Shown here piece after piece: positions 6,001 to 28,300 of a DNA stretch of 28,732 nt (position 1 is the stretch's first letter; every line of letters starts with the position of its first letter). Origin of the DNA: Amoebophrya sp. AT5.2. Taxonomy: Eukaryota > Sar > Dinophyceae > Syndiniales > Amoebophryaceae. Location: contig RXOD01004106.1 of assembly GCA_005223375.1 (NCBI GenBank), forward strand, positions 1 through 28,732, read 5' to 3'. The position numbers were made by a program, and so were the translations under genes. The notes under the pieces are model-generated. The model ran no database searches, was not told the origin of the DNA, and saw only the letters and a program-made list of their open reading frames with translations.

Positions 6001-9000
6001 AGGCGGGCAATCGAAGTACTCGAAGTACTGCCACATCAACTGCTGGGCCGAATGCCGCGAATGTAAGGATCACGCACCGGGAGGTGGCGGTTCCAGTTCC
6101 GGTGTCCTCGAATTCCGGGAACAATCGTTCCGTGTACCGGGAGCCGTTTCGGTACGACCACATGACCGAGTATCCTCCGTTCCGGTTTTCCGTTGGTATC
6201 GGGCGAGATATGGTGACAGGACCTCCACAGCTGCAAGAAGTGCAGGACCTGCACAGTCACAACAACTTCTTTACTTCCTCCGGGTCTTCCCCCCGTCCTT
6301 TCCCCCAACTTCCAGGAGGCGCTGTTGCGGATCATCTTCCCCACAATCTTCCCGAGGATCGCCCCCCCCAGGCACCCCAGCAGATGGCGGAGGAGCAGTC
6401 ATCTCCACTCGAGATCGAGGATCGCGGGCACCGGGTGCGACGAATGTACTCAACGGCGCTGCACGTCGGCTACCAGCACGAGCGGGCACAGAGTCGGAGC
6501 GTGCCGCCGCCCGAGACGCGGCAAGGAGGAAGCCTGTACGAAGAAGTAATCTCGATGGACGTGGATGGGTACGGATACGGGAGGGAGGAAGAAGAGGAGC
6601 AGGCGCTGATGCAGCGAGAAAGAAGACGCATCCGCCAGAGCGGAATAGAGTGGAGAGATGGCAATGGAACTGTTGCTGTGGGGGCTCCGGGTGCGCAGAA
6701 CAACAATTTCAACGCGTCGAATTCCTCGAGTTCTTCGGCAACATCTACAGTGGGGAGGACCGCTTTTGGGTCCTCGGGAAGCGGACGGATGAACAACTTG
6801 GACGCGGAAAGTGGCATCGAGCGCGAGGGGCGGGGATCTCCGCTGCCCGACATTCGGGAGCAGGCGGAGCCATCCGTAGCATCGGTGCCGGTAACAGGAG
6901 AAGATGAAAGCAGACCGGGCACAACTACATCGACTCTGCAAGCAGCGGCCGCACCAGTGAATTCTTCCGCCATCACCCTCGAGCCAGTGCTCTTGGGCTC
7001 GAGCGCCACGGTGGACTTGAATAACTCGGCTGGGGGAATGGGCGGAATCAACCTTAACCGGAATCAGCTGACGGAGTCGGAGTCTATCCATCTCTCGTCT
7101 GAGCAGGAGTCGGAGGGCAACGCCGGAGGGGCAGCTGCGGGGACTGCGAATGACGTAGGGCTGAGGTCCCTCGATCCTGCTGACCCTCGAAGTGTAGGAG
7201 AGCTGAACCTGCACTTCGAGAGTCAGCAGCACGGCGGCATTCGAACCAACGCCAACGCCAACCCTGTCGGCGGGTCGCCAGAAGATAATTCGGGCCCTTC
7301 TGCAGCTCAACCTCCTGGCCCAGGCGCGCCGACGGTAGATCGAGATCGGATCAGCGCAACTGTGAGAGCTACGCTTCGCGAATCTCGCATCCGCCCGACG
7401 TTGCTCCAAGCGCTTGCGGAGAGCCAGAATACTCAGGCAGGCGGAACAAGTACGCCGTTCGTGTTTGGTCGCCAGACCTCTTTCGGGTTGAATCCCTACG
7501 GGCGCCAGAACTACCCAACCAACCGGGGCAGGCGGATCATTCCGGATGCTGCTGCTCCCCCGACAACCGCTGCGAGGGACCCCCAGCATCAATTGCTGCC
7601 AAGTAGAAACGGACCTGCGTCCTGGGCCAGTTTCAGTGCCAGCGCGCGGGCGCTCCGTTTCCCCCCAACATTTTCGTCGAACGCGGCCTCGCCGGCTATC
7701 GACCACCGTTCGCACGGGGTGACGTCTCTGGAATACCAGGCGCAGATGGACCACGGCCGATTCGCGGACATCTTTCCAGAGCTGCGACACTCCGTTTCCC
7801 CACGAAGGAGAACCCCTGCATCCGCGGCGACGCGGTCGCCCTCCCGTACCTCGCCACTCCGAGGAACAAGGGTATCCTGCCCCTTGCCGACTTCCTCTCC
7901 TTCCCAGACGAATCGTGCAATCAAGGAAAGCAATGGGTGTAGTACCACCTCCCCATCTTCAAGTACAAGTTCAACCTCGTCCAGCACGCGCGAAAGCATC
8001 CAGTACTTCCACGCGTCACAGATCCTGGACCGGCTGGCGTATGCTGGATACCGCCCGGCGGTGAAAGAACGCGGCGCTCTGAAAAAGCGGGAGGAGTGGA
8101 TCTCCTACCTCCGCCCCGGAACGCACGTGGACGCCATGGACACAGAACAGGCGGCATGGTGCGGCTTTTTCCATATATCTTGATTTATTGCTATGGAAGG
8201 ATCTCAACTCAACTCAACGTCAACTCGAACTCATCATGAGGTTGATGTTTGATGCGCTTCTTTCCTTTCTTGTGATGATGAAACTTCGTTTGCCATCTGC
8301 AGCGGGGGCCGCAGAAGTCCTCTAGGTTTTGGTTGCTTGAGGTTGAGCAGTTTGCGCATGGTTGTACCCCGTTGCATCCCGTTACACTTGTTACCGATTC
8401 CACTTTAAATCGATCGGACGTCCTCGCTCACAACTTCCTCTTTTACCTCCAGGTACGAGTCCTACATTGTCTCGATCGATGAAGACAAGTGCTTGGTGCA
8501 TTTCCTGGGTTGGAACACGACGTGGCGGCGGCACATATTTCTGCAGAACGCGGACGCGCTGCGATTGCAACCCCGCAACTGGGTTGTGCCGGAGTGGCGC
8601 CGCCGGCTGCGGCGGCAAGACTCGCTTGACGTAAAAATTCCCCTGGCGCAAGTGCTGGGAAATAAGCTTGTATCCCCGGTACAACTAGATGTAATGGCGG
8701 AAGGAAGAGGTGGAACAACTACTATGGGCACTGGGAATGAATATGAAGCTCCTGCTCCGACTCCGGGATCGTCGTCGGCTGCTACGCCAGCGGCTACAGA
8801 AGATGACCCGAAGACGATTGCCCTCCCGCAGTCGGTCGAGATGTGCACGTTTGCGGAGGAAAACATGGCCGAGCTGCGACCGCGGTGGAAGGTCGCCCAA
8901 ATCGTTCAGTTGGGTCCGGGGAGGAGGGCTCAGGTGCGGGTTCTGGGCAACCCCTTGCCGACGACGGGAGCGATCCTAATGGGGAACGCTTTAGCTGCAA

Positions 9001-10726: not shown

Positions 10727-10734
10727 TAGTTAGC
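10727..10734. repeat. Left 8-bp target-site duplication (TAGTTAGC)
   Basis: TAGTTAGC abuts the outer end of the left inverted repeat and is identical to 23331-23338, which abuts the outer end of the right inverted repeat. The flanking DNA beyond the eight bases differs between the two sides. Eight bases is the duplication length of hAT, P, Merlin and KDZ-type transposons. Confidence 0.85.
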
Positions 10735-10979
10735 TATGAACGGACAAAGTTAGATTTTCGGACAAGACTCGGCGTGCGTTTTCAGATGGATTTCCGCCAG
10801 CCTTCGGAAGTGGAGCCGAAGGATGGCGGAAGTGGAACCGAAGGCTGGCGACGGCTGCTCCGACAGTTGGCGATGCGGAAACCGACAGCTGGCGGAACCA
10901 ACGGAGCTTCCCCGGGCGGCAGCTCGAATCGTTGCGGTTACTACCAGAACCACAACCTTTCAAAAAACCTCCAATCCAG
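10735..10979 (+). repeat. Left terminal inverted repeat (245 bp)
   Basis: It is the reverse complement of 23086-23330. The outer 110 bp differ at one base (10837 region, A for G). The inner 75 bp, from AGCTTCCCC to CCAATCCAG, appear identical. Between them about 60 bp differ; this part is built from shuffled CCGAAGG / GGAAGTGGA / CCGACAG units. Homology ends abruptly at 10979. Confidence 0.9.
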
Positions 10980-10985
10980 TCCGGT

Positions 10986-11049
10986 GGTTACGCAACAGTG
11001 GAATCTTCCTCTCGCTCGGTTACGCAACAGTGGAATCTTCCTCTCGCTC
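10986..11049 (+). repeat. 32-bp tandem duplication just inside the left TIR
   Basis: Two exact copies of a 32-bp unit beginning GGTTACGCAACAG occupy 10986-11017 and 11018-11049. The unit is absent next to the right TIR, so it is specific to the left side. It could be a subterminal binding site or a simple slippage duplication. Confidence 0.8.
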
Positions 11050-12445
11050 GCGACGAGGTTGACAAGGGATCGAAAGCTACTCCGCAGATGCTTTGGGCCG
11101 GCGTCGAGACAGGTCGTGACTGTTTCTATTGGTTGAGTTTAAGACTATGTCATGATTTAGAATTTTAAAACCGAGCCCGAACGTAAGAATGACAATGAGA
11201 TTGACACTGAGAAAGAGTGACAATCTAAATATCGACATCATACCCTAACCCTTACCCATTCCGATTCCCATTCCCATACCGATTCTGATACCGCGACCGC
11301 GTCCGCTCTTCGTATTCAACGCTGAACCAAAATCACAACAGGTGCAGCTTGGCGATCTGGCGCGCGCGTTCTGACCTTGGCTCCGGATGACCTGGGAAAG
11401 GAGACATGGACATGGACGTCGATTCTTTCGCTCGGGGTTTGCATGGGCATGCGATTGCGACACGGACTTGGGCTCGCTGGCCAATGATGATTGAGACTCT
11501 CGCCCTCCGACTGCGACTCGCACTCGCGCACATACTCACATTGCGGCCTCACACATCACTCAGAAGTGTAAGTAGCAGTAGCAGAAGGCTATCGCTATCC
11601 GAATCCTAATCCATACCCTTACCCTTACCCATTGCTATTCATTTTCATATTGAAGAAGAAGTAGAAGAAGAAGAAGATGGAGATGAAGGAGAAGCAATTT
11701 GAAGAACTGGCGCCGGCGCCGCGGGCGCAGTTGGCGATGGAGTTGGAGATCGGTTTCAAAAAACAAAAAAACAAAAAGCGACAACGTACCTACTCGGCGG
11801 AGCCTTGGGCTCGTTCCGTTGTCCATGAGCATGAGGATGAGCTCGAGCATGAGGGTACGCATTTGAATTCGTGCGTCAGCGTCGTGGTCGTTCTTGAGCT
11901 TGATCCTGAGGGGCTCACGGGGTGCGTCAGCGTCGCCGTCGTCGGGTCCTGGCTAGTGATGATGATCCGATGATGAAAATGATCAATCGTTGCAGTCGAT
12001 CTCGTCGTCGTGGTGAGCTCGACTGGGGGTACTGGAATCGATCGTCGTCGTGAGAGAGGGGATCTCGAGGCATTTCGTTTGTGCGTATGCTCGTGCTTAA
12101 TTTCTATTTCAACGATCTCCCCCTAGCTTTGCGATCCCAGTATGACTCGAACTCGTCTGGTGCTCGTAATTGGTTTTGGGTTTGGGTTTCTTTCGCATTC
12201 TATCTGATGATGATGAAGATGATGATGATCGCGTCCCCAATTTAATTTCTAAGGCCCCTACCCCTAGTGCTAGTCCTCTTGTTACCGCAACTGCCGCTCC
12301 TTCTACCCTAGTTCCAAATGCGCCGTCAGCGTCATCGTCAGCATCACGTAGCCTCAGCGTTGCGGCGCCGCCGCCGGAAGTAATTGCAATTCAGTTTACT
12401 TGTACATTTACAGACGAGGCAGTTTATGTTTTAGTCTCAAACAAA
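11050..12445. other. Non-coding leader region of the element's first gene
   Basis: This stretch holds cryptic simple sequence. There are CCNATN-type hexamers at 11239-11300 and 11610-11640, including CCCTAACCCTTACCC-like telomere-type runs. GAA/GAAG runs lie near 11652-11696 and GAT runs near 12208-12232. A frame is open from 12170 into the first gene but is AT-richer and begins at no ATG. An acceptor-like TTTACAG ends at 12413, so an untranslated or spliced leader is likely. Confidence 0.5.
11236..11300. repeat. Degenerate hexanucleotide / telomere-like repeat
   Basis: The stretch reads as CCCTAA, CCCTTA, CCCATT, CCGATT and CCCATA units in a row with a 6-bp period. The first two units match TTAGGG-type telomere sequence on the other strand. 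A second short run lies at about 11610-11636. Confidence 0.5.
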
Positions 12446-15400
12446 ATGCCGCGCGCGTTCATCAGGGATCCACTCTTCGAGCTTCCGGATGAAGAGCACC
12501 TGCGCGATCCTTCTTTGCCCCGGCCGCCGCCGAAAAGGCATTTCAAGGAGCAGCCGAGTTTCCTCGTGAATTTTGCGGTCCGCGAGGGGGAGGCGGAGCC
12601 CGTCGTTGGTTGCGATCCTGCACTGCATCGTCAAGCGGAGGAGGTTGTGCAGGACCTTCTGGAGAGGCTCGCGAAGGTCACCAGCTTTGTCGAGGTGAGG
12701 CAGATCCTGGATGTCGCGAGTGACGAGCTGCCGGCGGTGTGGAGAAACACCGGCGTGAGCAAACGCAAAGGGCCGCAGAAGTTCTGTCCGGACGTCGAAA
12801 GCCTGAAAAAGAGTTATCGTCGCTACCGCACGGATATGGAGTACAAGGCGCGCGCAACTGACCCAGGCCCTCCCGAACGACCGCACGACCGGCAAATCGA
12901 GCCGGACATGAGCGATTGGACGGTAAACATCAAAAAGCCCGAGCCCTTCTTCCTTCGCGAATTTGCGCGGGCGCAGTTGGTCGCGCGCTACAACGTTCCC
13001 GCGAACTTCCTCGAGGGCAAGAAGATTAAGAAACAAGGCGACATCGTGTTAGAAGATCCGGAGCTGCCTGACGCAGCCGAGTCGGACGCGGTGGAAAGAA
13101 AGAGGATCGGCCGCGTCAAGGAATACCTTCCCACCCTGATCAATGAAAGCATCCTCGCGTCACTCCATACCGCAGCCGCGAAGCGACAGTACCTGTCGTA
13201 CTCCGTTGGTGTTAGTGTGGGAACGGTCACGCAGAAAGTTCGAGCTATGCAGCTGACTCTCGGGGTGGACATCAATGAAGTCGTGGGACACAAGAGCAGG
13301 CTCAAAGGAGTTTCTAAGCTGGGGGCGGGAGCAGCACGGATCGGGGATCCAAACGACGCGGACGTCGATACCAGTGACGAGGACGAAATGGATATGGACG
13401 CGAAGCGGCGCCGCCTATTCGAAGGGGAGGACAAGAGCCATCTCAACAAGGTTTGCACTGGCGCTGTCTACGAGCTGCAGGGAAACCTATCAACGGGAGA
13501 TGCGACCCGGAAAAGAAAGCGGGAAACAGCAGAGGCCGACAAGCTGCAGGGCGCGCTCCGTAGATGGGTCGAGCGGGCGGAGATACGGAAGTGCGATATT
13601 ACCGAGTGGTGGAAGTTTTTGAACATGCTCAAATTCGCGGGTGGTATATATAAAAACTATTTCTTTATCTTTTTTGTTTTTCGTGCTCAGACTAAATCTA
13701 AACTCGAACGCGGCCTCCGTATTGATCACAGCCACCTTCGATTTTTTCTCACGTGCGCGCGTACACGGGCACGCGCACGCGCACACGCGCGTGCGCACGC
13801 GTACACGTGCGCGCGTGCACGCGTACACGTGCGCGCGTGAGTCGCTTAAATCTACTACTCGACCCCGCCCAGGCAACTGCGTCGATCCGCGCCGGAAGCG
13901 TTCAGTGGAGGAGTTGCCGCCGGCGCTCGAGGATCTCGACGGGCTCAATGTCGGCGCGGTGGGCAACCAAATGCTCGGCAGCGGACTGGCGGTGGGCAAC
14001 CAAATGTTCGGCAGCGGACTGGGGCTGCCTGGCGATCCGATGCTCCTTGACGTGGTGTTCGATCACGTGCAGGGACCGGGAACAGCAGTCGCATCCTCGT
14101 CGTCCTCTTCTTCATCATCTCTCATCATCCGCCGGCCAGATAAAAGCAAACGTGACGCACCAAAGCACCCTCCCGAACTGCTCGCGTCCTACGTGCAGGT
14201 TCATCAGCAGCGTCCTGTTTTTGTGGTGCGGGTGGCACCCGACGCCACAAATTTCAGGAAGCAGAAGGCCCTGAACATCGAGGTTTTCGTGTGCCGCACG
14301 ATGACACCCACCGGCAAGGTCCAGCTGAAACCCCTCTTTCCAAAACCTCTGGTACACAAAGGCGGCTTCCGGAACGTTTTGCAAGATCTGTACGTGATGC
14401 TGCGCCGGTATGGGGTGCCGTTACCTGGGTGCAAAGTCTCCGAGTTTCCACTGGACCCGCTGGCTCTGATTTGTTTTTGTTCCGACTGCGGTTCGGACGT
14501 CCGCAAAGCTGCGCGAGTTTGGAGGAAGCAAGCTCATCAGGGGGGTGAACTGGCATCGCGCCAAGTTCGGCGGGGCGGGCGACCGCTTCTTGCAATGCTT
14601 CATGTTGCAGTACGTGTGTCTCATGCACCAGTACCACTTACTGGAGGGAGACTTGATTACCGGAGACGTCACGAAAGAATTTCTGCAGGACTTGAAAGCG
14701 GTCATCTCCGCGTCGAGCCAGTGGCTGGAAAAAGTTCCGACGTTGCACCAGTACCAATCGCACCGCTGGATGACATTGAGCGCAGCGCTCCGCGACGTCG
14801 TTGACAACAGAATCGGCATCGAAAACGGGTTGCAGGCGCTCTCCCTCGACGACAGAAAACCAGAGATGCGAGCCACTGCGAAGCGCGCGAAAAAAGCCCT
14901 CTGCAATTACAAGGATCGTTTTTGGACGAACGTGCATGCGGTGCAAGCCGCTTTTGAACCGGTGCAGCACGCGGACGCGAAGCTCCTGAAACACTCCAGA
15001 ACGGTGTTTTCCGACGCGTCCATTTCCGCCGTCGTGAACGACGCCCCGGCCGCCCGGGAGGATTTCGCCTCCTTGTTTGAGGAGCACCTGCTGCTGCGTC
15101 CGCAGGACATGGATGGGCTCCGTATGCTCGTCAATCTCCGAGTGATTATGCCGCGACGCGAAGCGCAGTTGCTCACGTTCCCCTGGTTGCTGAACCACTT
15201 CCACCACCCGGTTCTCAGCCAGCGCGCAGCCGCGGCGTTCCAGCAGCACCCCACCAACAACGACGATTTCCTGCTCTTTTTGCAAACGGCGTACGCCGAT
15301 GACATTGATGATCTGGCACATAAGCGGCTGAGAACGGTCGGCGAGAACTTGGGGAAAGTTCTGGAGGCAGTCCCGACCTCTAGCGTCCCCGCAGCGGTGT

Positions 15401-16842
15401 TTCCGGAGAGTTCCCACTCCGCGATGACATACAACAAGAAGATTGCGCCGTCCATCCAGATGGAGCGGCTCTCCGTGCGGACCGCGATGGCTCGGGAGGA
15501 TGAGATGATCTCATGGGAACACTTTCCGGCGATCGAGGCGGCGTGGGAGGAGACGCACGACAAGCGAAAAGGAGGAGGCGAGCGCATGCAACACGTTCGC
15601 GTTTTGCCGCAGATGGAGGAGGAGCCGAAGAAACAACCGGGGGGGGAGCTCTTCTTGCGCGAGACGCTCGACGCCTGTTGCGACGCTATGGATCTGTACA
15701 GCCAGGAGTTCGCGAACACGCCGCACTTCACCGTCGAGGAGCCGCTGCACGAGAGCGGTCGGTTCGAGATATCGCCGGGGGTCCTGAAAAGTGTGAGTTG
15801 GGATGCTGAAGAAATTTTGGTATTAAATCGGGCGCAAAAGACCATGCTGGCGACGGAGATGGAAACTGGTGATTTGGTGGTGAAGAAGATGGCATCGGCG
15901 AAAAAACAAGAGGCCGAGCAGGTGTATTATTACTTTCGGCAGAAGTGCGACGCGGGCTACCTCCTCCCGGTGAAAATAATGCATGGGGCAAAAAAGAGTC
16001 CGGGCCAGGAGCTAGTAGAATATACTTTGCTCTTCAACTCCGTCCGCAGTCTCCGCAACTGGATCGCGTACCCAAAGAACACCACTACGAAGAACGACTT
16101 CGAGTACCACACGACGACGCCGCTCCGTGCGTACTGGAATGCGCAGAAGGAAGCAGTAGTGTTCGTGGCACTGGCGAAGCTGCAGTCGTGGGTGAAAGGC
16201 AGGCACGCGTTCAAAGACATCTTCCAGGGAAGGGCGCGAACGCGAACCGGCGAGGTCACCACTCGTGATTACGTCCCGCGCACGGGCCGCCGGGATCGCG
16301 AAGTGAAGTGGTCGACGCTGGGCGCCTACGACCACTCGGTGGCGATCCCGGAAAAGAAATACTCCGAAGTGCTGGCAGGTCCGAGATAGCACTTGATGTC
16401 ATTTCTCTTCGTTCAAGTTCACTAAGACTCATGCTCATCAACTGCCCTCGTTGCTCTCGTTCTTGTTCTTCTTCTCGTCGTTATTCGCGAAAATCCAACG
16501 CCGCAAACAGATTTGCGCGTGATATTCAGACCGGAGACGGGGACGTGGTTCGTCAATGTTCCGCTCGATCGCCGCAGGAAAAAACGCGGTGAAGGCTTCA
16601 CGGCCGATCAGTGGAAGCCGGAAACTTCGCAGACCCCGCACGGCATTCTCGCGCCAGATGCAGTGAAGGAACATCGTCGAATCGCTCTCGGATTGGCCTG
16701 CGACCGACTCGGAATCGAGCTACCGGAGGTGACGCAGGAAGAGGAAGAACGGGCGTGGGGCGAACTGGACCGGTACATTCAGGACACTGCAGGGTTTGAC
16801 TTTTCCTCTTCGGAAGAGTCTGGGGCGTCGTCCGAGGGGTGA
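12446..16842 (+). CDS. Element gene 1: large protein, candidate divergent RNase H-fold (hAT-like) transposase (three exons, one frame break)
   Basis: Exons are 12446-13643, 13873-16378 and 16511-16842, joined in matching phase 1 at both introns. Reading on needs one surplus base ignored near 14503-14508 (CGCAAAGCT), where the frame moves +1; about 1,344 residues result. The ATG at 12446 is the first in frame, but the frame is open from 12170. Possible transposase signs are Asp523 in a VAPDATN strand, Asp604/Asp608 in a CFCSDCGSDV strand about 80 residues later, a Cys/His helix (QCFMLQYVCLMH), then SHRWMTLSAAL at about 695-705, like the hAT 'RW' helix. The last exon (LRVIFRPETGTWFVNV ... RRRKKRGEGF) looks like a small basic DNA-binding segment and ends in an acidic tail. 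No family match is certain. Its place in a TIR element with an 8-bp duplication supports a transposase role, which is inference. Confidence 0.6.
13644..13872 (+). other. Intron 1 of element gene 1
   Basis: The donor is GTATAT at 13644 (GTGGTA at 13641 is an equally in-phase alternative) and the acceptor is CGCCCAG at 13872. Both choices join frame 2 to frame 3 with a split glycine codon. The intron starts AT-rich, then carries a long alternating purine-pyrimidine tract just before the acceptor. Confidence 0.75.
13750..13839. repeat. Alternating purine-pyrimidine (Z-DNA-prone) tract in an intron
   Basis: Bases 13769-13839 are 71 consecutive strictly alternating purines and pyrimidines made only of CG, CA, TG and TA steps. 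A shorter alternating run, 13750-13767, precedes it. It is also strongly self-complementary. It ends 33 bp before the splice acceptor. Confidence 0.85.
13956..14021 (+). repeat. 33-bp tandem duplication inside element gene 1
   Basis: Two 33-bp units, 13956-13988 and 13989-14021, differ at a single base (C/T). They encode the repeated peptide AVGNQM(L/F)GSGL in a flexible linker near the start of exon 2. Confidence 0.8.
16379..16510 (+). other. Intron 2 of element gene 1
   Basis: The donor GTCCGAG follows a phase-1 G at 16378. The acceptor AAACAG ends at 16510 and the next bases AT complete a GAT codon. Unspliced reading would stop at the TAG at 16387. The intron is 132 bp and pyrimidine-rich towards the 3' end (CTCGTTCTTGTTCTTCTTC). 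Confidence 0.75.
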
Positions 16843-17797
16843 TCCAATGCTGCCCGGAGGCCCACTGAGCGGCAGCGCCGACCGCCGCGACCTGTAGTTT
16901 TGTGCGGAGATTTTCCGCCATGCCGAGGATGAAGGAGGCATCTTGGCCTCCCTCAAGAGGTTCATAATGGAGAGGTGAAGGTGACCAAATCCGAAATTTT
17001 CGGATCACTGGTCGAAAAAGTATCATATTTCTTGATTTTTCGGACCGTTCCATGATTTTTCCGCGGAAAATTCATGGACTCATCTGAAAAATCTGGTTTT
17101 TGGAGACTTTTCGGAAGGCACTTCCGAAAATTTCGTTTCTATGGATGTCTGACACTAAGTAGAACATATGAAAAGAGGCAGAACTTTGCTTCGCGAATCG
17201 CTTGTACAGCATTGATATCCAACGCCCTGTGCTCGACATCTCTTCAATTTTGATGATAAGTTGTACACTTGCGCGATCGCCTCGCCGCTCAATTTACCCG
17301 AGGAAAGAGCTATGATGTAGACTCATGTACTTCACGAAGACAGTAAAAATATCTAAAGATATCACCTCGAGCGCTCACGATGTAGATGAAAATGAAAGAG
17401 ACTATACCTGAAGTGTCCGCCTGCGTCGCGTCTTGCTGCGTCGTCGTTCGTCGACTTTTGCACTGCTCATCGCTCATCATGTGTTCGCTTTTGCGTCGTG
17501 AATTCTTGGGAGAGGGCGTTTTAGAATCTACCCCGCCTCACTCTTTGGAAGTGCTAAACCCCTTCTAAGTGCACCCGGGAGCCCCGGCATACGTTAGACA
17601 TAGAGTAGCCTTCTACTTCTACTCACACATAGATTAGTGTCCCACATCATCAATTTTTCCACTGCCTCACCGGGCCGCCTAGCACAGTCGCTACATCATC
17701 TGCTTCGCTTCCTTGCGCATCATCCGACCCAAACCAAACCTTCTAGCGAGCGAAAGCGCAACCTTCTTCAACGCTAAACGCGCGAACAACCGACAAG
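16843..17797. other. Non-coding region between the two element genes
   Basis: No coding region longer than about 60 residues is present. The first 300 bp carry a cluster of strong inverted repeats (listed separately). The remainder is AT-richer and presumably holds the 3' end of the first gene and the promoter and leader of the second. No clear TATA box is visible. Confidence 0.5.
16983..17130. repeat. Cluster of three palindromes sharing CCGAAA/TTTTCGG arms
   Basis: (1) 16983-17013 has GACCA...TGGTC and ATCCGAAA...TTTCGGAT nested arms. (2) 17051-17076 is a 26-bp near-perfect palindrome centred on CCGCGG. (3) 17108-17117 and 17121-17130 are perfect 10-bp arms around a GCA loop. They start about 140 bp after the stop of element gene 1. 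Confidence 0.8.
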
Positions 17798-20700
17798 ATG
17801 AGTGGAGCTCAACCGACGGAAAGCGAGGTCAAGGACGTCCTCAAGCGCTGGCGCAAGAGGACGATAACGAAGAAGGACTTCATCGACTTCGTGATGAGGT
17901 TCCGCGCCCCGACGATGGCCGCGAACAGCACGATGACGGTGCAGCAACTCCGTGCCTGCGCCCACGTGACCACCCTCCTGGGGTTCATGAAGGAGGGCAG
18001 TTACATCTGCCGCCAACCGGTCGTCGCGATCCATGACACCATGGAGGTCCTGAGCGGCCGCCACAGCGTCGAGGCGAGCAAGCGCTTCGAGGAGGAGTCT
18101 ACCGAAGAGTGGGAAAAATTGGGGTTCCAGGTTTAACCAAAAATCTAAAGCATGAAAGTAGAACACGAAGTAGGGACGATGTCGCTTTTTAGTTTTTTGG
18201 TTTCGGTCCACAGGCAGCTTATCTCGAATGACAGATCACCTGCCTGTCTGCGGGGGTGCGCGACTTCCCCGATCTTCTGCGAGTGTACGTGCGGGTCTGT
18301 AATGAAGGGGCCAGCAGTTTGAAAACGACGATGCTGGAGAAGCTCTGCAGTGTTTACCCCCAGGTATTCTTGACCCCCCAGGTGTTTACCCACAGTGGGC
18401 TACCTGCCGTGGCAGAACTAATAATCAGCTACTACAGCCCGTGGAAATCGATGAAGATCAAGTGGATACTTGGTATCATACCGCAGTACGTGCTGAAGAT
18501 ACGCAGACACGTCGACTTCATCGATGTTACTGAAGACGATTTCGATGACCACTACCACTAAGCAGTTTCGTTCAACAGTTGAACTTCAACTACAAGCACA
18601 CTATTACTTCCGCCAGCTCGCTACCTAGTAGCTCGGATTGCGATGAATATGAAATCACATTCACTGTGCCTACACTTCTGCGCCCGTGAATCATACTTCG
18701 AGCGACGTGGCCGCGTTGCGGCGAAAAGAATAGTCCGAATGTATGTAGTGCATGAGACTGTTAGCGGACGTATGTCCAGTCATCTTCATGATTACCGAGA
18801 GCGCCGTTCCCTGCCGGTACAAATGGCTTGCGAGGGAACGGCGCGGAGTATGCGAAGTAATGAGGTCTGCTGGACAGGAGTTCTTCCCTTTGGGCGTAAA
18901 GGATTCCCTGTCCTCCCGAATTTTCTTCTCCAGTGCCTCGTAACCGAATGCAAAAATGTTGTCGGTCTGTTTGGCGCCGTCGTACTCTTTGATCTCCGCG
19001 ATTGCTTCCGCGAGGAATTTTTTGGTGTCTGGTTTCGGTGCAATCGGGACCCAGCAGCACTTCCCCTTTCCCACCGCGTTCTTCCGGTTTTTGGTATCCC
19101 CTACGCGTACTCGGGTCAAGTCGGCCGGGATGTCTTTGTGGGTCAGCATCCTGATGTCCTTGCCTCTTCGGCCAGTCATACACTGCAGAAGCCACGCGAG
19201 GCGATAGCGTTTACCCGTAATTTTTTTCCTACCGCTCAGCTTCTGTAAATGTATTCCGAACTCTCTGCAGTCGCTCATTTCGAGGCTGCCACTTCGTTCT
19301 TCTCCTTCAGCATCACCCATGATTACCTACAGCTGGCGGCCGACTGGGAACGGTGCGACGACTCCTTCGACGAGAGCAACGAGGACGGCGAAGCGAAGCT
19401 CAGCAAGCTGGAGTTCCTGAAGGTGCGGCGGAATATCAATCATTTTTAATCAATCGAAAAGTAAGGGAAGTAACTCAAAATAAATATAATTGGACGAGCC
19501 CCTCGTGCGCGCGCGCGCGTGCACGTACGTACGTACGCACGCGTGCACGCGTGCGTGGCGCGCGCGCAGGCGCGCAGGCGCGCAGGCGCACGGGGAGGGA
19601 AATTTAGACTTCCGTAGGTGTTTCCGCTCGTTGTGCGTAACTCTAGTACGACCATCATCACAGCGGGGATGTGAGGCGCTGGCGAATATCGGGGAGTTTG
19701 ATATCCTGATGCAGGCTGCCCGTGAAAAGTGGGGGACGGTCAAGGGGTGGCAGCATCAGATCTCCAAATACGGGAACGTCAAAAGCGAAGGCTCGTACGC
19801 GAGCTTTTTTAAGTCGAAGATCTTCCCCCTCAAGCTCAAGCGCCTTCGACTCGTGCATAAAGACTGCGTACTCACCGCCGCGATGCGGCTGGCACTCAAG
19901 GAGCCGACCCTGCCCCAGGTCACGCACGAGGAGCTCCAGCCCCTCGCCGACATGTTTCGCCACAAGATCGAGGCCACTGCGACTTTGGAGGACGCTGCCG
20001 TGTACAGGGAGGTGATCAAAATCACGGAAACCGCGCGAAGCATCATCCTCGGCGCGCCCCCCCCGACCGACGAGGAGTTGGACGAGATGTTTGCCGACGA
20101 AGTCGACGACCTGCTGGCTAGCGAGAACGAGGGCGGGGACGCTGCGGACGGCACCGACTCCCAGAACACCGCGGCCGGCGGCACGGCCGGGGCCGGAACG
20201 CCGACGCGTCTTCCGGCACCAACGCCACCACGTCCACGTCCCGGGAAAACTTTTGGACCAGCGACGCCTGCAAGGAGATCGACGACATGGTGTTCAGCGG
20301 AATGTGCCCTGCTGACATCGGATGTCCCGACCTCGACTCGTGGACTTTGAAGACGCCGGAGCAGTTGGCTGCGACAAAAAAGCAGCGCGCCCTCTGCGAC
20401 CGCCTCGCCGCCGTCATCGCCGCGGATGATTTTTTCCAGACAAGGAAAAACGCGTGCACTTTGTCGGTGTGCGCGGCGACGAAGGAGCACAGCGCCCTGC
20501 TGCTGAAGATTAAAGACGGAATGCAGGTGAGGTTGGAATTTGATGAGGGATCCAAATTTTTTCCCTTCCACTCCAAAAAAGCATCCGTCATCAAGGCCGC
20601 CTGCACCAGCACCGAGGCAGAGTCGCTGCAGGCCGAGCTCGACAAGCAGGCAAAGACCGCGAAGCAGGAGGTGACCGCGCGCAAGGAGCTGTTCAAGAAG

Positions 20701-21626
20701 GAGGGGAAGGCGTTGGACGTCAAGATGAACACCAACTCCAAGGTCGACAAACACTTCGGCGGCGACAAGGACGACGCGCTGCTGGAGCACGCGAAGGCGA
20801 AGCTGGCGCTTGAGAAGAAGCTCAACTTCGACATCAAGGAGCTCCAGGTGAAGTACCGCGAAAAGGTGAAGGACCTGCAGGACAAAATTTCCGCCGCGAA
20901 GTCGGCGGTATATTGCCAGGTCAAGATCACTGAGTTCGCGCGCAACTTGACGATCCCAGTGGAGTGCGCGGTGGTGGACGTCGCCCACTACCAGGCGAAG
21001 GACATCTCGGCCGTCGGCACGGAGGCCACGATGTCCGGTTCGAAGACCCACATCGTCCCCGCGCAGATCCCGTGCATCTGGACCGCCACTGCGGGCGACG
21101 CCAAGGAGATGAAGATGCCGAAGATCCGCATGGACTTCAAGACGCCCTCCGACAACGACTACAAGCTCATGCCGCGGTGCGCGGTATAGTTTTTAACTTT
21201 ATGGATATGCTGCTCTACCTCTACCTGTAGGTGTAGCCCCCCCTCGCCCTCTCGCATTTTGTTTTCATCATCACTTGCATTTTCCTGTCTCGATTTTGGT
21301 GTTGCGCGCGCCCGCGCCTATCCTAACGCTCCTCTCCAACGCCACAGGACTTTGGCGACTGGAAGTTGCAGTACAAGATTCCGGTCGAGGTCGTCGCGGA
21401 GGAGGAGAAGGAGGCAGATGACGGGGACGCGAAGGACGGGGACGCGAAGGGCAAGAAGGGCGCGAAGAAGATCGACGACAAGCTGCTAGTGCTCTTCGAC
21501 GACGACCTCGGCACCGCCACCGCCACCGCCACCTCAACGGCCGGCGCGTCCTCCTCGTCGACCGGCAACAAGCGCAAGGCGGGGCCGGCCGCGGCCACCG
21601 ACGGCGCGAGCAAGAAGAAGAAGTGA
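17798..21626 (+). CDS. Element gene 2: charged coiled-coil protein of unknown family (five exons, one frame break)
   Basis: The ATG at 17798 has a purine-rich context. Exons are 17798-18130, 18235-18363, 19333-19422, 19664-21183 and 21348-21626, all phase 0, about 783 residues. Exon 4 moves from frame 2 to frame 1 between about 20160 and 20250, inside a Gly/Ala/Thr-rich linker; its length (1,520) is one base short of a multiple of three, so one missing base would restore it. The N-terminal part is helical. A cysteine-containing block (FSGMCPADIGCPD) starts at about 20290. A Lys/Glu-rich coiled coil covers about 20600-20910. Beta-rich segments follow, then an acidic stretch and a basic tail (NKRKAG ... 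KKKK) that resembles a nuclear localisation signal. I do not recognise the family. As a partner of gene 1 in the same element, an accessory or DNA-handling role is plausible but unproven. Confidence 0.6.
18131..18234 (+). other. Intron 1 of element gene 2
   Basis: The donor is GTTTAA after CAG at 18130. Of the AG sites near 18213-18234, only the acceptor ending at 18234 keeps the downstream frame 1 open. The intron is 104 bp, phase 0, with a poly-T stretch near 18186-18202. Confidence 0.6.
18364..19332 (+). other. Long intron 2 of element gene 2, hosting an antisense recombinase ORF
   Basis: The donor is GTATTC after CAG at 18363 and the acceptor is CTACAG at 19332, phase 0. At 969 bp it is 4-9 times longer than the other introns of the same gene. 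Nearly all of the extra length is the minus-strand recombinase frame 18691-19320, which stops short of both splice sites. Without splicing, the frame reads on to a stop at 18561, giving an alternative short product. Confidence 0.55.
18691..19320 (-). CDS. Tyrosine recombinase/integrase catalytic domain, nested antisense in an intron
   Basis: The 209-residue frame reads as the catalytic half of a tyrosine recombinase, the enzymes that cut and rejoin DNA through a 3'-phosphotyrosine. The active-site residues appear in order. They are Arg51/52 in TGRRGKDIRMLTHKDI, a Lys in the DTKNRK hairpin (77-80), His157-x-x-Arg160 in SHTPRRSLASHLYRQG, His183 in MTGHTSANS, and Tyr192 in HYIHSDY. The N-terminal core-binding domain of full-length enzymes is missing. 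In-frame TAG lies three codons before the ATG, and an acceptor-like CTGTAG precedes it, so an upstream exon or 5' truncation is possible. Eukaryotic homes of such enzymes are Crypton, DIRS-like and some giant elements; with no RT beside it, Crypton-like is the simplest reading. It lies wholly inside intron 2 of the + strand gene. Confidence 0.75.
   Translation of the reverse strand: MGDAEGEERSGSLEMSDCREFGIHLQKLSGRKKITGKRYRLAWLLQCMTGRRGKDIRMLTHKDIPADLTRVRVGDTKNRKNAVGKGKCCWVPIAPKPDTKKFLAEAIAEIKEYDGAKQTDNIFAFGYEALEKKIREDRESFTPKGKNSCPADLITSHTPRRSLASHLYRQGTALSVIMKMTGHTSANSLMHYIHSDYSFRRNAATSLEV
19423..19663 (+). other. Intron 3 of element gene 2
   Basis: The donor GTGCGG follows AAG at 19422 and the acceptor ATCACAG ends at 19663, phase 0 on both sides. 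The donor hexamer equals that of the giant gene's intron. The intron is AT-rich at its start and carries a GC-rich alternating tract in the middle. Confidence 0.65.
19504..19595. repeat. Alternating purine-pyrimidine tract plus GCGCGCAG repeats in an intron
   Basis: Bases 19504-19555 are 52 strictly alternating purines and pyrimidines (CG, TG, CA, TA steps, including three ACGT units). They are followed by about three tandem copies of GCGCGCAG. The outer edges (CCCCTCGTGCGC and GCGCACGGGG) are nearly complementary, so the tract can fold as one hairpin. Confidence 0.8.
21184..21347 (+). other. Intron 4 of element gene 2
   Basis: The donor GTATAG follows GCG at 21183 and the acceptor GCCACAG ends at 21347, phase 0. 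The next exon opens DFGDWKLQYKIPVEVV in frame 3. Unspliced reading stops at the TAG at 21187. Confidence 0.75.
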
Positions 21627-23085
21627 TGTTTGTGTTGTTGATCGTTGTGTTTTCGTTTCGTGCGAGGACCACTCCGGATCTGGCTCGTCCGGCACGCATA
21701 GTGTAGGGCAGCGGCAGGTCGTACAACGTAGTTGTTTCATTTTTATATCCAGTAGGTAAAAAGAGTGACTACTACATTTCTATGTCGAAACATTGTGGCT
21801 GAACAGGTGGAGGATCGTGAAAAAAAATTTCATAGTCTGTAGCTTTGCTGTCGTCTGATTTGAAGCTCTTTGAATAGCAGCATATATTTGTACATGAATT
21901 AGAATTTCTACACGGTAGGACGGCAGCGGGCGCAGGCAGTAGTAGATCACCACCTGCTGGATATCTAGTTCTTCATGATTTGTTTTTATCGCCGCTGCCC
22001 TACACCATAGGAGTTCATCATCGGAGTCTCAGCACCTATTCAATTTTGGTCATCGCATCCGGATAAAGACCCGACCGGATTATAACTTCACTCTGGCGCG
22101 GTGGATAAAGAGATAGCGATAGTTCGATCTGACGTTAGCGCTCAGTACCTGTACGTGCCGGACCGTTGTGCTGTGGCCTCCGACTCGGTTTTGCGTGGTG
22201 CGATCCACTGCAGTCTCGGTGTCGTTGAGTGTTGACCTGCAGATCGAAGTACTTTAATTGGTAGGAGATGTGACCATGCTAGACGACATAGTGTATGATC
22301 TTTGATTGCCTCGGTTTCCGGGCACTAGAAAATCCGTCAGGATCAGGTCCGAATCGGTGAGGCGAAGCCGTAAGGCCCCTGCGGTCAGCTCACTCTGAGT
22401 TCTTTCGAAGTCATTCGCTCTCGTTGATCAGGCCATCATAGCTGAGTTTACACCAGCCGAAGTATCGCCCGCTCGTTCTACTGCTCCCTCGGCGATGCTC
22501 TCTCAACGATCACTCCACTCCGGCACTTCTTTCGTTGAGTATCAAAATCATATTTCGAAGAAAAAATAAATACATAAAGTACTACCAGAGGTGCCGGAGT
22601 TTTGGTTTGATCGTGGTGATCCGATGCTGTGCTCGTGCCAGGCTTGTTTGACTCAGGTTGAGCAGGTGCTGGACATGTGACGGACCTTACGCTGAGTGAT
22701 TGATGAGTAAACAAGTCGGGATACGACACCTGTAAAATATGATAGTTCTTCATTCAGTGCTGAGGCCGTCGGAAACCAAAAAGCGGGGGGGTGCGAATTC
22801 CCCGTATCAACGCACTGGACCAAAGCGCCGGTGTTCACTTTCCCTCGAATCCCATGGAAAAACGAAGCTGATGAAGATCCAGCACGATCCGATCCTACCG
22901 ACCCTTTCGTCGATCCAGCTCTTTTGATGATCCAGAAGATCGGATCGCGACCGTTCGTTCTGGATCACCGTATACATATTTTACACTTCTGCAGCATCGC
23001 TACTTAAGCTTTCGTGAGCTCGTGGGGGATCAAGAGGGTCTGGGGATCGTGCTAGCGGGATTGGGGCAGATCGAGCTTCGTTTTT
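21627..23085. other. Non-coding right-hand part of the TIR element
   Basis: About 1.46 kb without a supported gene; the longest frames are 60-90 residues and show no protein-like pattern. GC is lower than in the two genes. Visible structure is a spaced inverted repeat (21701-22005) and GATC-rich palindromic words near 22870-22960. It presumably holds the 3' end of element gene 2. Confidence 0.55.
21701..22005. repeat. Spaced 15-bp inverted repeat
   Basis: GTGTAGGGCAGCGGC at 21701-21715 is the exact reverse complement of 21991-22005. The 275 bp between are AT-rich and non-coding. It could be a small MITE-like insertion, but no matching duplication flanks it. Confidence 0.5.
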
Positions 23086-23330
23086 CTGGATTGGAGGTTT
23101 TTTGAAAGGTTGTGGTTCTGGTAGTAACCGCAACGATTCGAGCTGCCGCCCGGGGAAGCTCGGTTTCCGTCGCCAACTGTCGGCTCCACTTCCGAAGGCC
23201 TTCGGTTCCACGTCCGCCAGCCTTCGGCTCCACTTCCGCCATCCTTCGGCTCCACTTCCGAAGGCTGGCGGAAATCCATCTGAAAACGCACGCCGAGTCT
23301 TGTCCGAAAATCTAACTTTGTCCGTTCATA
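23086..23330 (-). repeat. Right terminal inverted repeat (245 bp)
   Basis: This is the inverted copy of 10735-10979. It carries the same terminal and inner blocks. Its variable middle has more complete CTTCGG(C/T)TCCAC(T/G)TCCG units than the left copy. The outer end (TTCATA) directly meets the right target-site duplication. Confidence 0.9.
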
Positions 23331-23338
23331 TAGTTAGC
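23331..23338. repeat. Right 8-bp target-site duplication (TAGTTAGC)
   Basis: Identical to 10727-10734 and immediately outside the right TIR. The following bases (AGAACTCC) differ from those inside the left flank, so the match is limited to the duplication. Confidence 0.85.
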
Positions 23339-23437: not shown

Positions 23438-25381
23438 ATGCCGCGGGTCGTTGCTCTCGGCGTTGCCGACTTGAGCGCCTTCGACAACTGGACGGACCTT
23501 GGTCTGTCTCCAAATGTCTTTCTCAAGCAGGTGAAGCCGTACTGGAAAAAATTTGTAAAGGGCCTCGGCCTCATCTCCGCCTTCGAAGATTACAAGTTAT
23601 CCTCGACGACGTCCTCGTTGGATAACGTATGTGTAGCCCCGCCGCCGCCAAGACCTAGTTCTAGTTCCACGACCAGCCCGCATGCTGCGCACACGCATCA
23701 TCAAATCACGGGCCTGGGGCAGCAGAAGACTCCAGCAGATGCTGTTGACACAAGAACTGCATCCAGGAAGGCCGCGGCCCCCTCGTCAATACCAGACTAC
23801 GTCGCATCAGAACTTCTTGCCACCTCACGCTCACCCGACGAGGATAGTACAAAAAAGGCGGAGGGCATCAGGTTCCGAGGAGGGGCCGCTGCAGCAGCCG
23901 TCGCCGGAAGAGAAGGAAAAGAACTAGAGCTGCCGTCAATGGTGCCTCCAGATGAACAAGTACGACTACCATCGGCGCCAGTACAACCACAAGGAGAGGA
24001 ACAAGACCAGTCACCACGGCCATACGCAGAGCCAGCTATCAGCCTCCCGTACGTGCCCGATGATCCTTCATTTCCATTGCCTTTCTCATCGTCCGCGACT
24101 AAGGGCAGCGAAACATGTTGCCCCTTTGGCCTCATGTTGTCACACTCCTGGGGTACGCTGAACATCAACAGCCGCCGCGGCTGCTGTAAGTCGCGACGAG
24201 GACGAGGAGGAGGCACGACCTTGTCCACCTCCGCACCAGCTGACACACGTCGAGATGGCAGCGCATCTTCCGCCTTATCCAGCACAGCTACACGGCATGT
24301 AGTTGAGCCGAACCGGAAGACCGAACAGGATCAGGATCATCGACCAGCGCCTGGTGTGGTCCAGCCTGCCCCTACAGCTGGCCCACCTGCAATGGAGGCA
24401 AAAACAGGACCACGACTAGGACTACCGCTAGAAGCGCGAAAAGTAGCGAGCAGCTCCAAAACTTCTTCGACCAGCAGCAAAAGCAAAAAACTGCTTCTGG
24501 AGCGCACGTCGGCGCAGCTCGCGGCGTCCTCTGCGATTGGGCAGCTCTCCAACGCGGCTGCCTATTCCCAAACGAACCTGAAGCGGTCGCAGAGTTGTCC
24601 CACGGTCGCAGGGTTGAAGGAAATGCGAAATGTTGGAGGACCACAGGGACTACAAGGTGGTCAGCTGCCTCCCGGTCCGAAGCTGGTGCTGCGGCATTCG
24701 GGCGAGGCGAAAAGGAACTGGCAGTTTAGGGAGTTCAGTATCGACGGATACACCTTTCAGGACCGGTACAAGGAGGTTTTAAAGCGCTACCAGCGGTTGT
24801 GGGAACAGGCAGAGTGGCAGGCACAGGTAGAGTTCTGGCACGACGCGGACGATATGACTGTGACCAGTGAGGATGACTTCGGTGCGCGAATGGGGGAGCC
24901 CATCGTCTTTGCCGCGACGAACGATCACTTTGGCGCACCAACAAGCACAACTGCCGTTCTCGGTCCTGCTCCTGAACCTCGATGGAGCGCTCCTGAACAG
25001 GTGGCCATATCTGGTAGCGGAGATCAACGCCACGTCGCAGCTCCCGCTGCTAGTGGTCCTCTCCGAGGCGGACATGCAGGATGCGCTATGGGAAAAAGTG
25101 CTGCGCCTCCTGCAAATCACTCTTCGGCACCGCTACGCGATAATCCGGGCAGCAAGAGCAGTCGCCCTAGTAGCCCACTCCCTTCAGCTCCCGGCAATGA
25201 AGGCCCCAGCGCTGGTCCCCGGCGCAGAAGACGTACTGGCTATACAAATAGCGCACAAAGACCTCTCGGGAGAAGTACTAGTGGGCTACGTCTCGCCTAC
25301 CAAAAACCGGTCCCCAGCTCTCAGGGCACTAGTAGACTATGTTGCAGCGAATGCGGAGGACCTGTGCCTAGCAGCGGGTGA
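23438..25381 (+). CDS. ORF1-like protein of the retrotransposon, or host exon fused in frame
   Basis: The ATG at 23438 (context AAATATAATGC) opens 647 residues. The first 64 residues look globular (DNWTDLGLSPNVFLKQVKPYWKKFVKGLGL). The codons then run into GTATGT at 23627, a consensus splice donor, after which the protein becomes Ser/Pro/Gly/Ala-rich and disordered. A second ordered-looking block (about 24690-24890: FSIDGYTFQDRYKEVLKRYQ, then WEQAEWQAQVEFWHDAD) precedes the overlap with ORF2. No CCHC knuckles or RRM expected of classical ORF1 proteins are visible. It may be a nucleic-acid-binding ORF1, or a host exon 23438-23626 with the element behind it; the sequence alone does not decide. 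Confidence 0.5.
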   Translation: MPRVVALGVADLSAFDNWTDLGLSPNVFLKQVKPYWKKFVKGLGLISAFEDYKLSSTTSSLDNVCVAPPPPRPSSSSTTSPHAAHTHHQITGLGQQKTPADAVDTRTASRKAAAPSSIPDYVASELLATSRSPDEDSTKKAEGIRFRGGAAAAAVAGREGKELELPSMVPPDEQVRLPSAPVQPQGEEQDQSPRPYAEPAISLPYVPDDPSFPLPFSSSATKGSETCCPFGLMLSHSWGTLNINSRRGCCKSRRGRGGGTTLSTSAPADTRRDGSASSALSSTATRHVVEPNRKTEQDQDHRPAPGVVQPAPTAGPPAMEAKTGPRLGLPLEARKVASSSKTSSTSSKSKKLLLERTSAQLAASSAIGQLSNAAAYSQTNLKRSQSCPTVAGLKEMRNVGGPQGLQGGQLPPGPKLVLRHSGEAKRNWQFREFSIDGYTFQDRYKEVLKRYQRLWEQAEWQAQVEFWHDADDMTVTSEDDFGARMGEPIVFAATNDHFGAPTSTTAVLGPAPEPRWSAPEQVAISGSGDQRHVAAPAASGPLRGGHAGCAMGKSAAPPANHSSAPLRDNPGSKSSRPSSPLPSAPGNEGPSAGPRRRRRTGYTNSAQRPLGRSTSGLRLAYQKPVPSSQGTSRLCCSECGGPVPSSG

Positions 25382-28300
25382 CTGGAACCTATCGGGGGGT
25401 CCGGTCTACGAGCCGCAGCGCCGCCCAGGAGCCGCCGGCCGCCTCTGGGATGAGCTGGAGAAAACGAAGCTCTCCAGCGTCCTCCCCCCCGATGAGCCCA
25501 CGTTCAGGGGAGCCGAAACACAACCGGACATTCTGTGGGTTCGGAAGCAGCCCGGCCAGAACGCCTTGGCAATGGCAACAGTTTCGGAGCCGTCGCGTCT
25601 TCCGGTCTCGATAAACTCCCATAGGCGCATCGACTGGCGGGGGAAAGCAGCCCCAGGACCGGGCAGCAGCGGCCCGGTCGAAGTGGGAGGGGAGCCACCA
25701 CCGGTCCCTCCGGGGTTTCGCCGGCGAGTCAAGTTTGAGGTAGAGAAGGCCACGGACCAATCCCTCGAAAAAGCAGCTGATATATGCCGAGCAGCCCTGG
25801 CCAACGGCACCTTCAACCAAGGGACGATGGAAGCAGCACTCGGAAAAGCGGGAGTACCGCGCTCAAAAAGTCGCCGTCCGCCACTTCCGATGCCGCTAAT
25901 CCAGGACAGCGGAAAGCTGACGACAACGTCGGAGGAGGCAGCCAACGTTTTCCGCGCTCGCGTGATGGAGGGGCGCCCGGCCAGCCTCCGGCGCACGCCC
26001 GCAGAGCAGAAGGAGCACGATGTAGAAGTAGAAAAACTACTAGCAGAAGCACCAGACGACCCGTTTGAAGCAACATGGGATAGCGCGCACAGAGCTCGGA
26101 AGCGGCTAAACAAGAACGCGGCACCTGGTTCGGACGGCGTCAGTGCGAGATTCCTCTTCGTCTGCGATACGCTGCTGCTAGTGCTGGTCCAGTGCATATG
26201 CGCGGCGTTTAACGCGTTCCGCGACCCCCCATGGAGCAAGACGTATCTGGTCAACTTTTTGTTCAAAGCCAAAAAACGGGCGGCCAGCATATTCGTCTCG
26301 CGATTCTACCGCCCAGTAACGTTGATAAACGTTATCGATAAACTGGCAGAGGCCGTGGTTTTGGAGAAGCTGACAGTGGTGCTGGCGGTGGTGGCAGATA
26401 ATTTTGCCTACCACGCGGGGTGGTCTCCGGCGGCCGGCCTTCTCCGCTCGCTTCTGTACACCCTTTCTTCGTCGGCTCCATTCATAGGAGTCATCGTAGG
26501 AGATGTGCAGGGCGGGTTTGAAAATGCCCTTCTCTTGCACGTGCTACGCGTCTTGGCAGCGAAAGGAGCGGGCCGACAACTGCTAAAAGCAATTGTCAAT
26601 TGGTTTGCGGGCCGCGCAATCATCATAATGGTTGATGGTCTCCTCTCCGCGGCAGCGGCCATTTCTGAAGGTTTGGGGCAGGGGACCCTGCTCTCCCCTG
26701 CCCTTTTCAGAATTGTCATTGAAGAAGGCATGACTCAAGTGGGCTTCCGCACAAACCAGACGCTAGCAGAAGTAGTCACCGGCTTCAGCGATGAGCTCGC
26801 GATCTTCTGCATTGCCTGGTCAGAAGCAGAGCTGGCGCAGAAGCTGCAGGAGCGGGGCAGCCAGCTGCTTGACATGCCGTATCCAGTGGACGACTTCAGA
26901 ATTGCCCTCCTCCGCTGCCCTGAGGACCAGGATGCAACCGACCGCAGAAAACGCGCACTGGCCCGCCGCTTCCATGTTCGCCTGAAAAACGGCCTTCTCC
27001 TCACGCTTCCAGAAACGTGGGCGCAGCCGGAGGACGATGGCATAACGGCGACGGCTATGGCGGGCACGAACGCCTGGCACCCGGAAGCGCACATCTCGAT
27101 CCTCGGAGTCCCACTCACAGCGAACAGTGCGGCGTGGGCGTCCTGGCTTGAAGACCAACGTAGAGCAGTGGAGATAACGACGTCGAACATCCGCTCGAAG
27201 CTCCTCGACCAGGACAACAAGGAGGTCCAGACCCCGCTGGACCTGGTGGACCAGTATCACCAAAAGATATTCTCCACCCTGCTGTATATGGCGAGCGTAA
27301 AGACCGTCCTGTGTCCATGGGTGTTACCTGCGTTAGACGGTCTGGCGGAGGAGGCCCTACGCAAGCTCCTAAAGGTCAGCGTCACGGCGCCGTTTTATAC
27401 GACCTTCGTGTCAACAGGCGCCCTCGTCCCATCAGTTGCAGCCCTTGCCGAGAGAAAGACGAACAACACGCAGATCCTCGGCCTAGACAGCGAGGAGTAC
27501 AGGACAACGATGCGGGTGGGCGACGTGTTCGACCACGGCTGGTTTGGCTGGAGCAGGGCCCTCATCTCGCTGACAAACGAAGCTGGCCCGGCGCTGCCGG
27601 ACAACGTAGTCCTCCTCACGTGCGCGGACGTCTGCCGCAGGGTTGGCCTCAGCAACAAAAAGGTCAACACACCGGAAATAGCAAGACGAATAAAAGCAGA
27701 GTTCGAAGATCTAGAGCGCAACCTCGGCTCAGCCCTGCTATGGGTTGCGACGGACAGCGGCGACGACCCCACAGACTTCGACCCCAGCATGCGGGTGGGA
27801 ACGATCGCCATGCGCTACGGGCACGACAAAGACGCGGACTGTGCATTTGCGCTCCGGCTAGCGCATCTGTTCACAACCTTCATCGGAGAGGCGGGAGCAG
27901 TAGTCAGTGCTTTGACCATCCTCGACGACAGCGCGGACGTCCCGGAGGCACCGCTCAACTCCCCGCAGCTGCGCTACGTTGTCTTCCAGATAGACGCGGC
28001 CGGTGTGATAGATGATCTGAAAAGTATTATAAGGGAGCAGCTCTGGGTTCGAGCGCGACAAATCCTCGCTCGCCTTGGCAAAAGGTACGAGGGGAGGATT
28101 GTTTTTGTGCTCCACTGGGTTCCAGGACACAGTGGTATCTCGCCGCACCAGCACGCGGACGAGATCCAAAAAACCCCGGGCCCAAGGGTGCCCATGGAAG
28201 CATTCGTGAAGCCGGTCGTGCCTCTGCGTCAACTCCGGGCCTTCATCCGGAAGGAGCTCACGAAAACGGTGCGGAGAACAGTTGGCATCAGAGGAAGCCG

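Follow-up and report, generated by a model that had tools for sequence, protein, structure and literature searches.

What kind of transposon occupies contig C310, and which of its enzymes moves it? The window analysed here is this entire contig (28.7 kb), and copies were searched for in the genome assembly that contains it, G000 (50.7 Mb; 2,759 contigs). A sequence-only reading had proposed a complete 12.6-kb terminal inverted repeat (TIR) transposon of uncertain superfamily, with two spliced genes and an 8-bp duplication at its edges. The element proper extends over positions 10735-23330, and it is a full-length member of an autonomous family of TIR DNA transposons in a dinoflagellate-lineage protist. 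Its inverted arms (coordinates of all features in the table) match over 116 nucleotides at 99% and over 98 nucleotides at 93%, and a single alignment of the two has 249 columns, 90.4% of them identical. The sequence TAGTTAGC abuts both outer edges and has no further match in the window. In shuffled controls it was matched 0.42 times on average and at least twice in 5 of 100 shuffles, matches being counted anywhere and not as abutting both ends.

Other copies were sought through the ends. The 246-base window end, the kind of probe first suggested, matched the window alone, the outer arms varying among elements; the family was revealed by protein searches and by the shared terminus, which yielded six end pairs. 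The end pattern TATGAACGVACN{8,16}GACA had 16 matches in G000, compared with 1 for the reversed control. Twelve of these combine into the six pairs, all in the correct orientation and each flanked by an 8-bp direct repeat; the six repeats all differ, five being exact and the sixth matching at 7 of 8 positions. No partner was matched for the remaining four (C1297, C1666, C2292 and C2392). Five of the six elements are full length (11,586 to 12,596 bp), the window included. The sixth, C830:7995-11750, is 3.76 kb long, has no match to the recombinase or to the large protein described below inside its ends, and is probably a non-autonomous copy. Inverted ends, a target-site duplication and insertions at several different targets, the attributes of a TIR (class II) DNA transposon, are all present. 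In conclusion, the window element is real, beyond chance once the other copies are counted; the proposal of a large, complete TIR transposon whose 8-bp duplications are genuine is borne out by the five full-length copies and the one copy without family genes, and the six end pairs provide the different duplications that it had called for.

No empty site was found in the assembly: of the 15 matches obtained, 12 were the flanks, and the other three were repeats, 34-35 bp long, of a single flank. Joining the flanks minus one repeat produced a 533-residue open frame at C82 and a 347-residue frame at C874; at the other four of the six sites there was no frame of at least 80 codons with 20 on each side, the left flank of C2027 being only 93 bp long. 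A mitochondrial carrier consists of three repeats. The C874 halves, compared with the Pfam mitochondrial carrier family, gave one match on the left and two on the right, which places the element (flank 4435-4877 and after 16667) between carrier repeats one and two. Because the two halves together give three carrier repeats, at least one copy is inserted into a host gene, and since this insertion splits the gene, the family has moved. The window copy is suggested to be older, because its arms are 90% alike and its large gene changes frame near 14.5 kb.

The host was assigned from CCATTTTGGCTCAAG, which we take to be the core motif of the dinoflagellate spliced leader: its 34 exact matches in G000 (control, 0) point to a dinoflagellate-lineage protist; Amoebophrya was considered as a candidate (PMC7789003). 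No light-harvesting protein (PF00504) was found in G000, an assembly that may be incomplete, and the host may be without such proteins.

Instead of two spliced genes, the element contains at least four conserved coding regions, the small gene and a third, multi-piece gene (ORF3, for open reading frame 3) recurring in relatives. The gene order, large protein (+), small gene (+), tyrosine recombinase (-) and third gene (+), is conserved in the family. In the window, the large gene is in pieces, the change of frame near 14.5 kb being either a short intron or a broken frame; six relatives encode the large protein as one open frame of at least 1,182 residues (for C874, 1,474 or 1,293 residues, depending on the stretch read). 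It was matched on 16 other contigs at E <= 1, most weakly on C830 (E = 0.012). Of the 13 other contigs that have a close recombinase, it is present on 12, the exception being C2124, and of the five with a weaker recombinase, on one (C1089); the two genes are convergent in all 14 contigs that hold both, window included. In the alignment of the large protein, C, H, R, W and E are invariant in 15 of 15 rows, the first D is kept in 12 of the 13 rows with a letter there, and the second in 13 of 14. From these motifs we infer that it acts as a DDE transposase of the RNase H-like kind, in which CxxH and RW belong to a helical insertion. The strand and helix order of its structural model fits an RNase H-like fold, with a predicted local distance difference test (pLDDT) score of only 55 and weak fold matches; Hermes appeared among these in the noise range and was not counted.

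Profile searches did not place the large protein in a family. A Pfam search with the window ORFs and six relatives at E <= 1 returned few weak rows (best 0.02), none of them hAT, KDZ or Tc1/mariner, and the matches of the large protein to Pfam, NCBIfam, PHROGs and PDB profiles were weak, with no transposase family among them and no hAT protein listed by the PDB profile search. The hAT_C domain had no match in the genome, an uninformative result as the controls were silent too. The one marginal match to PF12314 was not used, as a bacterial control matched as well. The superfamily was rightly called uncertain: the motifs are of DDE, CxxH and RW type, yet none of these weak matches is to a transposase family.

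By contrast with the initial view that neither gene was of a recognisable family, the minus-strand gene encodes a clear tyrosine recombinase. It matches Pfam Phage_integrase (PF00589, E = 3.7e-14) as well as PHROGs integrases, and combines this profile with the R..K..HxxR..H/W..Y residues of such enzymes. Its relatives in G000 comprise 13 further close ones (48-82% identity), another five that are weaker (34-39%) and a fragment that contains a stop. The fragment was left out of the alignment; in the 19 rows that remain, window included, all seven catalytic positions (R, R, K, H, R, H, Y) are invariant, and the window recombinase is, judged by its sequence, intact. A pattern scan of IMG/VR for recombinase relatives returned 15 stretches with one weak 55-residue match, and six phage records gave weak integrase-type matches.

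A tyrosine recombinase, long inverted ends and genes of unknown function would also come together in an integrated virus or in a virus-like element such as a polinton-like virus or virophage; in keeping with this, the recombinase has a PHROGs integrase match, and ORF3 weakly matches a virion structural protein in PHROGs (E = 0.032). Nevertheless, the ORFs tested, part of ORF3 among them, gave no significant match to a capsid, a packaging ATPase or polymerase B, none of the 54 IMG/VR stretches that fit the large-protein pattern was a relative, and 8-bp duplications are present. We regard a viral origin as very improbable.

Each full-length element carries a dyad, CGTTGCGGTT-ACTACCAG-AACCACAACC in the window, at the inner edge of its TIRs. 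This arrangement of a 10-bp arm, an 8-bp spacer and a 10-bp arm was found in 10 of 10 ends of the five full elements, in a search that kept, between 100 and 320 bp from the terminus, the best arms around a spacer that had to end in AG. Sites on C2292, C2125, C1421 and C158 raise the total to 14, with arms that match at 7-9 of 10 positions, and all 14 have the geometry of lox and FRT sites, two inverted arms around an asymmetric spacer of 6-8 bp (with a spacer of 6 bp about the same axis, the score is 7-8). At random positions the probability of at least eight arm matches is 1e-3 over 215,540 windows, a yardstick rather than a test, the dyad having been sought. Arm positions 3, 4 and 9 pair in 14 of 14 sites and position 10 in 13, and positions 1 and 7 in only 4. 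Paired changes were observed at position 2 (C/C in 12 sites, G/G in both window sites) and at position 6 (T/T in nine, G/G in both C82 sites, unlike in three). A genome-wide search with up to three mismatches gave 10 matches, all in element ends, and none in the control; the two window and two C82 dyads exceed three mismatches and stand outside this count. Two of the 10 (C158:8206-8231 and C1421:8265-8290) lie in degenerate ends, pointing to older copies. Contigs C2292 and C2125 start exactly at the TATGAAC terminus without a flank and stop at the inner dyad of the opposite end; this may reflect insertion at several sites, a linear form that exists free, or an effect of the assembly.

The likeness between the two ends of one element stops close to the dyad. 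Up to it they are 89.6-99.6% identical and over the next 60 bp 45-64%, and the outer arms of different elements are 49-60% identical (gapped alignments, without a shuffled control). In C2027, C82 and C1444 the BLAST likeness of the ends stops no more than 5 bp from the dyad; in the window it continues for about 22 bp past the dyad. Exchange at the dyads would produce such a pattern, with the outer arms of one element agreeing roughly as far as the site and diverging past it, and with little likeness between elements. The observed limit fits strand exchange there, and could alternatively result from gene conversion or from selection for symmetric ends. Dyads are also common as binding sites, and this one might bind the large protein or serve as a promoter element or replication signal, the recombinase acting elsewhere. 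Consistent with such a role, no dyad was found at the ends of the 3.8-kb C830 element, and on C1089, the one contig with a weaker recombinase that was analysed over its whole length, no inverted ends were found, and no dyad in the part searched. We consider this unlikely in view of the position of the dyad at or near the limit of TIR identity in five of five elements, its 10-8-10 geometry and the confinement of its genome-wide matches to element ends.

The reading that we prefer, with a probability of roughly 70%, is that a DDE-type large protein transposes the element with an 8-bp stagger and that the recombinase acts on the inverted dyads to flip or resolve it. The large protein would cut at TATGAAC and join the ends to the target with the 8-bp stagger, as its motifs suggest. 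The anatomy of the dyads suggests that the recombinase would bind the 10-bp inverted arms, with strand exchange taking place in the spacer of 6-8 bp. Given the inverted orientation of the two sites, recombination within one element would flip its interior. Between directly repeated copies, as in a cointegrate or dimer, the outcome would be resolution. Inversion of the kind known from Flp/FRT, whether or not coupled to replication, would fit, and so would resolution like that by TnpI; neither is strongly favoured.

Alternatively, the tyrosine recombinase might itself be the transposase, as in Crypton, Starship or Tn916, with the large protein as an accessory: a circle with an 8-bp coupling sequence would form and re-enter by 8-bp-overlap exchange. 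Its catalytic positions are kept in every aligned row, overlaps of 6-8 bp are typical of tyrosine recombinases, and joined ends would make TTCATA-8bp-TATGAA, which is a dyad too. Against this, the two 8-bp copies are alike in six of six insertions (one at 7 of 8) into different targets, whereas integration of a circle would often leave unlike coupling sequences; moreover, the ends already contain a dyad distinct from this one, and the large protein retains conserved acids like those of DDE enzymes. We judge this alternative quite improbable. Cryptons themselves, described as being without inverted ends (PMC3212892), were rejected, as the window family has inverted ends.

TIR elements with both a DDE transposase and a tyrosine recombinase are described in ciliates, namely Tec1/Tec2 of Euplotes and Sardine and Thon of Paramecium, the last two with long inverted ends and with additional ORFs whose function is unknown (PMC3464196, PMC5405496, PMC3212892). 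The recombinase of these elements has been suggested to resolve transposition intermediates (PMC3212892). Of this combination, the recombinase and the TIRs are seen in the present family, and the DDE enzyme is proposed. The ciliate elements have IS630/Tc1/mariner transposases and TA-bounded insertions; the window family differs from them in its 8-bp duplications, in a much larger protein that looks unrelated, in its host of dinoflagellate lineage and in the dyad at the inner edge of its TIRs. Membership of the ciliate group by TA target and Tc1/mariner transposase was rejected, given the 8-bp duplications and the lack of a Tc1/mariner row in the Pfam search.

The family resembles hAT elements by its 8-bp duplication and, in the large protein, by CxxH, by RW and by the stretch ExxHS, which resembles the hAT motif ERxFS. 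It differs in that no sequence similarity to the large protein is detectable and that typical hAT transposases are shorter. hAT ends read YARNG, and assignment by termini was rejected as the ends TATGAACG do not fit; the window ends with TATGA, as do the other 14 end-pattern matches, for which the search pattern requires it. Duplications of 8 bp are described as usual in hAT and also present in Zisupton/KDZ (PMC12730594), and a C/DxxH motif between the second D and the last E is described in the CxxH group of hAT, P, MuDR, Kolobok and Dada (PMC9587614). Zisupton/KDZ elements are alike in their 8-bp duplications and large protein. They were rejected on the Pfam rows, which include no KDZ-type model; Pfam holds a KDZ transposase profile.

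Two further systems resemble the recombinase part. Tn4430 and Tn5401, of the Tn3 family, combine a transposase with a tyrosine recombinase, TnpI, that acts on a dyad core site. They are bacterial, have a 5-bp duplication, and their core site lies upstream of tnpI and not within the inverted ends. Resolution by TnpI is described for Tn4430 (PMC7157771). The yeast 2-micron plasmid likewise has a tyrosine recombinase and two inverted sites. It is a circular plasmid without transposase or target duplications. Its Flp can invert the DNA between two head-to-head FRT sites (PMC6594588).

A literature search found no report of a transposon with a DDE enzyme and a tyrosine recombinase that has 8-bp duplications or occurs in dinoflagellates, Repbase and Dfam being outside its scope. 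Such a pairing is already known from ciliates and some bacteria, and the window family is best seen as a variant of it with 8-bp duplications. A bolder proposal, to which we give somewhat less than even odds, is a new eukaryotic superfamily with a built-in flip: a DDE enzyme would insert it with an 8-bp stagger, and its own recombinase, acting on lox/FRT-like sites, would invert the interior (or amplify a free form in the manner of Flp) and so keep the outer arms of each copy alike. Few eukaryotic transposons have both enzymes, and in the publications cited the role of the second, resolving intermediates, is a suggestion. The family supplies a candidate recombination site at the same place in every full copy examined, which makes the role of the recombinase directly testable. 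It also adds, from the dinoflagellate lineage, a transposase-like group with 8-bp duplications and no superfamily assignment.

Table. Features of the window element, and the 8-bp direct repeats at the six paired insertions
Feature	Position	Strand	Detail
Left target-site duplication	10727-10734	.	TAGTTAGC, 8 bp
Left terminal inverted repeat	10735-10979	+	terminus TATGAACGGAC; 22-bp internal repeats
Left dyad	10930-10957	+	CGTTGCGGTT-ACTACCAG-AACCACAACC; proposed tyrosine-recombinase core site
Large-protein gene (proposed DDE transposase)	12170-16839	+	in pieces
Large gene, piece 1	12170-13837	+	ORF
Large gene, piece 2	13623-14801	+	ORF; D 14241-14243, D 14484-14486
Large gene, piece 3	14470-16386	+	ORF; CxxH 14617-14628, RW 14764-14769, E 15406-15408
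Large gene, C-terminal piece	16426-16839	+	ORF
Small gene	17747-18561	+	perhaps two exons: ORFs 17747-18133 and 18232-18558
Tyrosine recombinase, catalytic domain	18694-19326	-	ORF residues R53/R54, K79, H159, R162, H185, Y194
Third gene (ORF3)	19490-21189	+	multi-piece: ORFs 19490-20347 and 20122-21186
Right terminal inverted repeat	23086-23330	-	
Right dyad	23108-23135	-	same dyad, inverted; proposed core site
Right target-site duplication	23331-23338	.	TAGTTAGC, 8 bp
8-bp direct repeat	C310 (window)		TAGTTAGC, exact
8-bp direct repeat	C82		AAAGCTGT, exact
8-bp direct repeat	C1444		GGTCCGCT, exact
8-bp direct repeat	C874		GATCGGCT, exact
8-bp direct repeat	C830		AGGCAGTA, exact
8-bp direct repeat	C2027		AAAATGAA/AAAATGAG, 7 of 8

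The second piece of the small gene has a blastp match to relatives, and the first was assigned by position. ORF3 of the window has the same position as ORF3 of the relatives and matches that of C2292 weakly (E = 0.0095). Long tracts of alternating purine-pyrimidine sequence (CG/CA), possibly intronic, occur between coding pieces of the element at 13745-13846 and 19497-19562. Three contigs with relatives carry self-palindromes of about 100-170 bp (C2038:6309-6429, C2698:5210-5309 and C2311:3640-3805), which recall introner-like introns with inverted repeats.

No Rfam family or tRNA was found in the window. To the right of the element, a reverse-transcriptase-like ORF (24864-28730, +) runs off the contig end; its RVT_1 match (E = 1.3e-5) is under the curated cut-off, and it probably belongs to a retrotransposon adjoining the element. 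On the left, an open frame of 2,726 codons (3-8180, +) has no Pfam match and contains two near-perfect hairpins, at 3292-3362 and 4873-4935.

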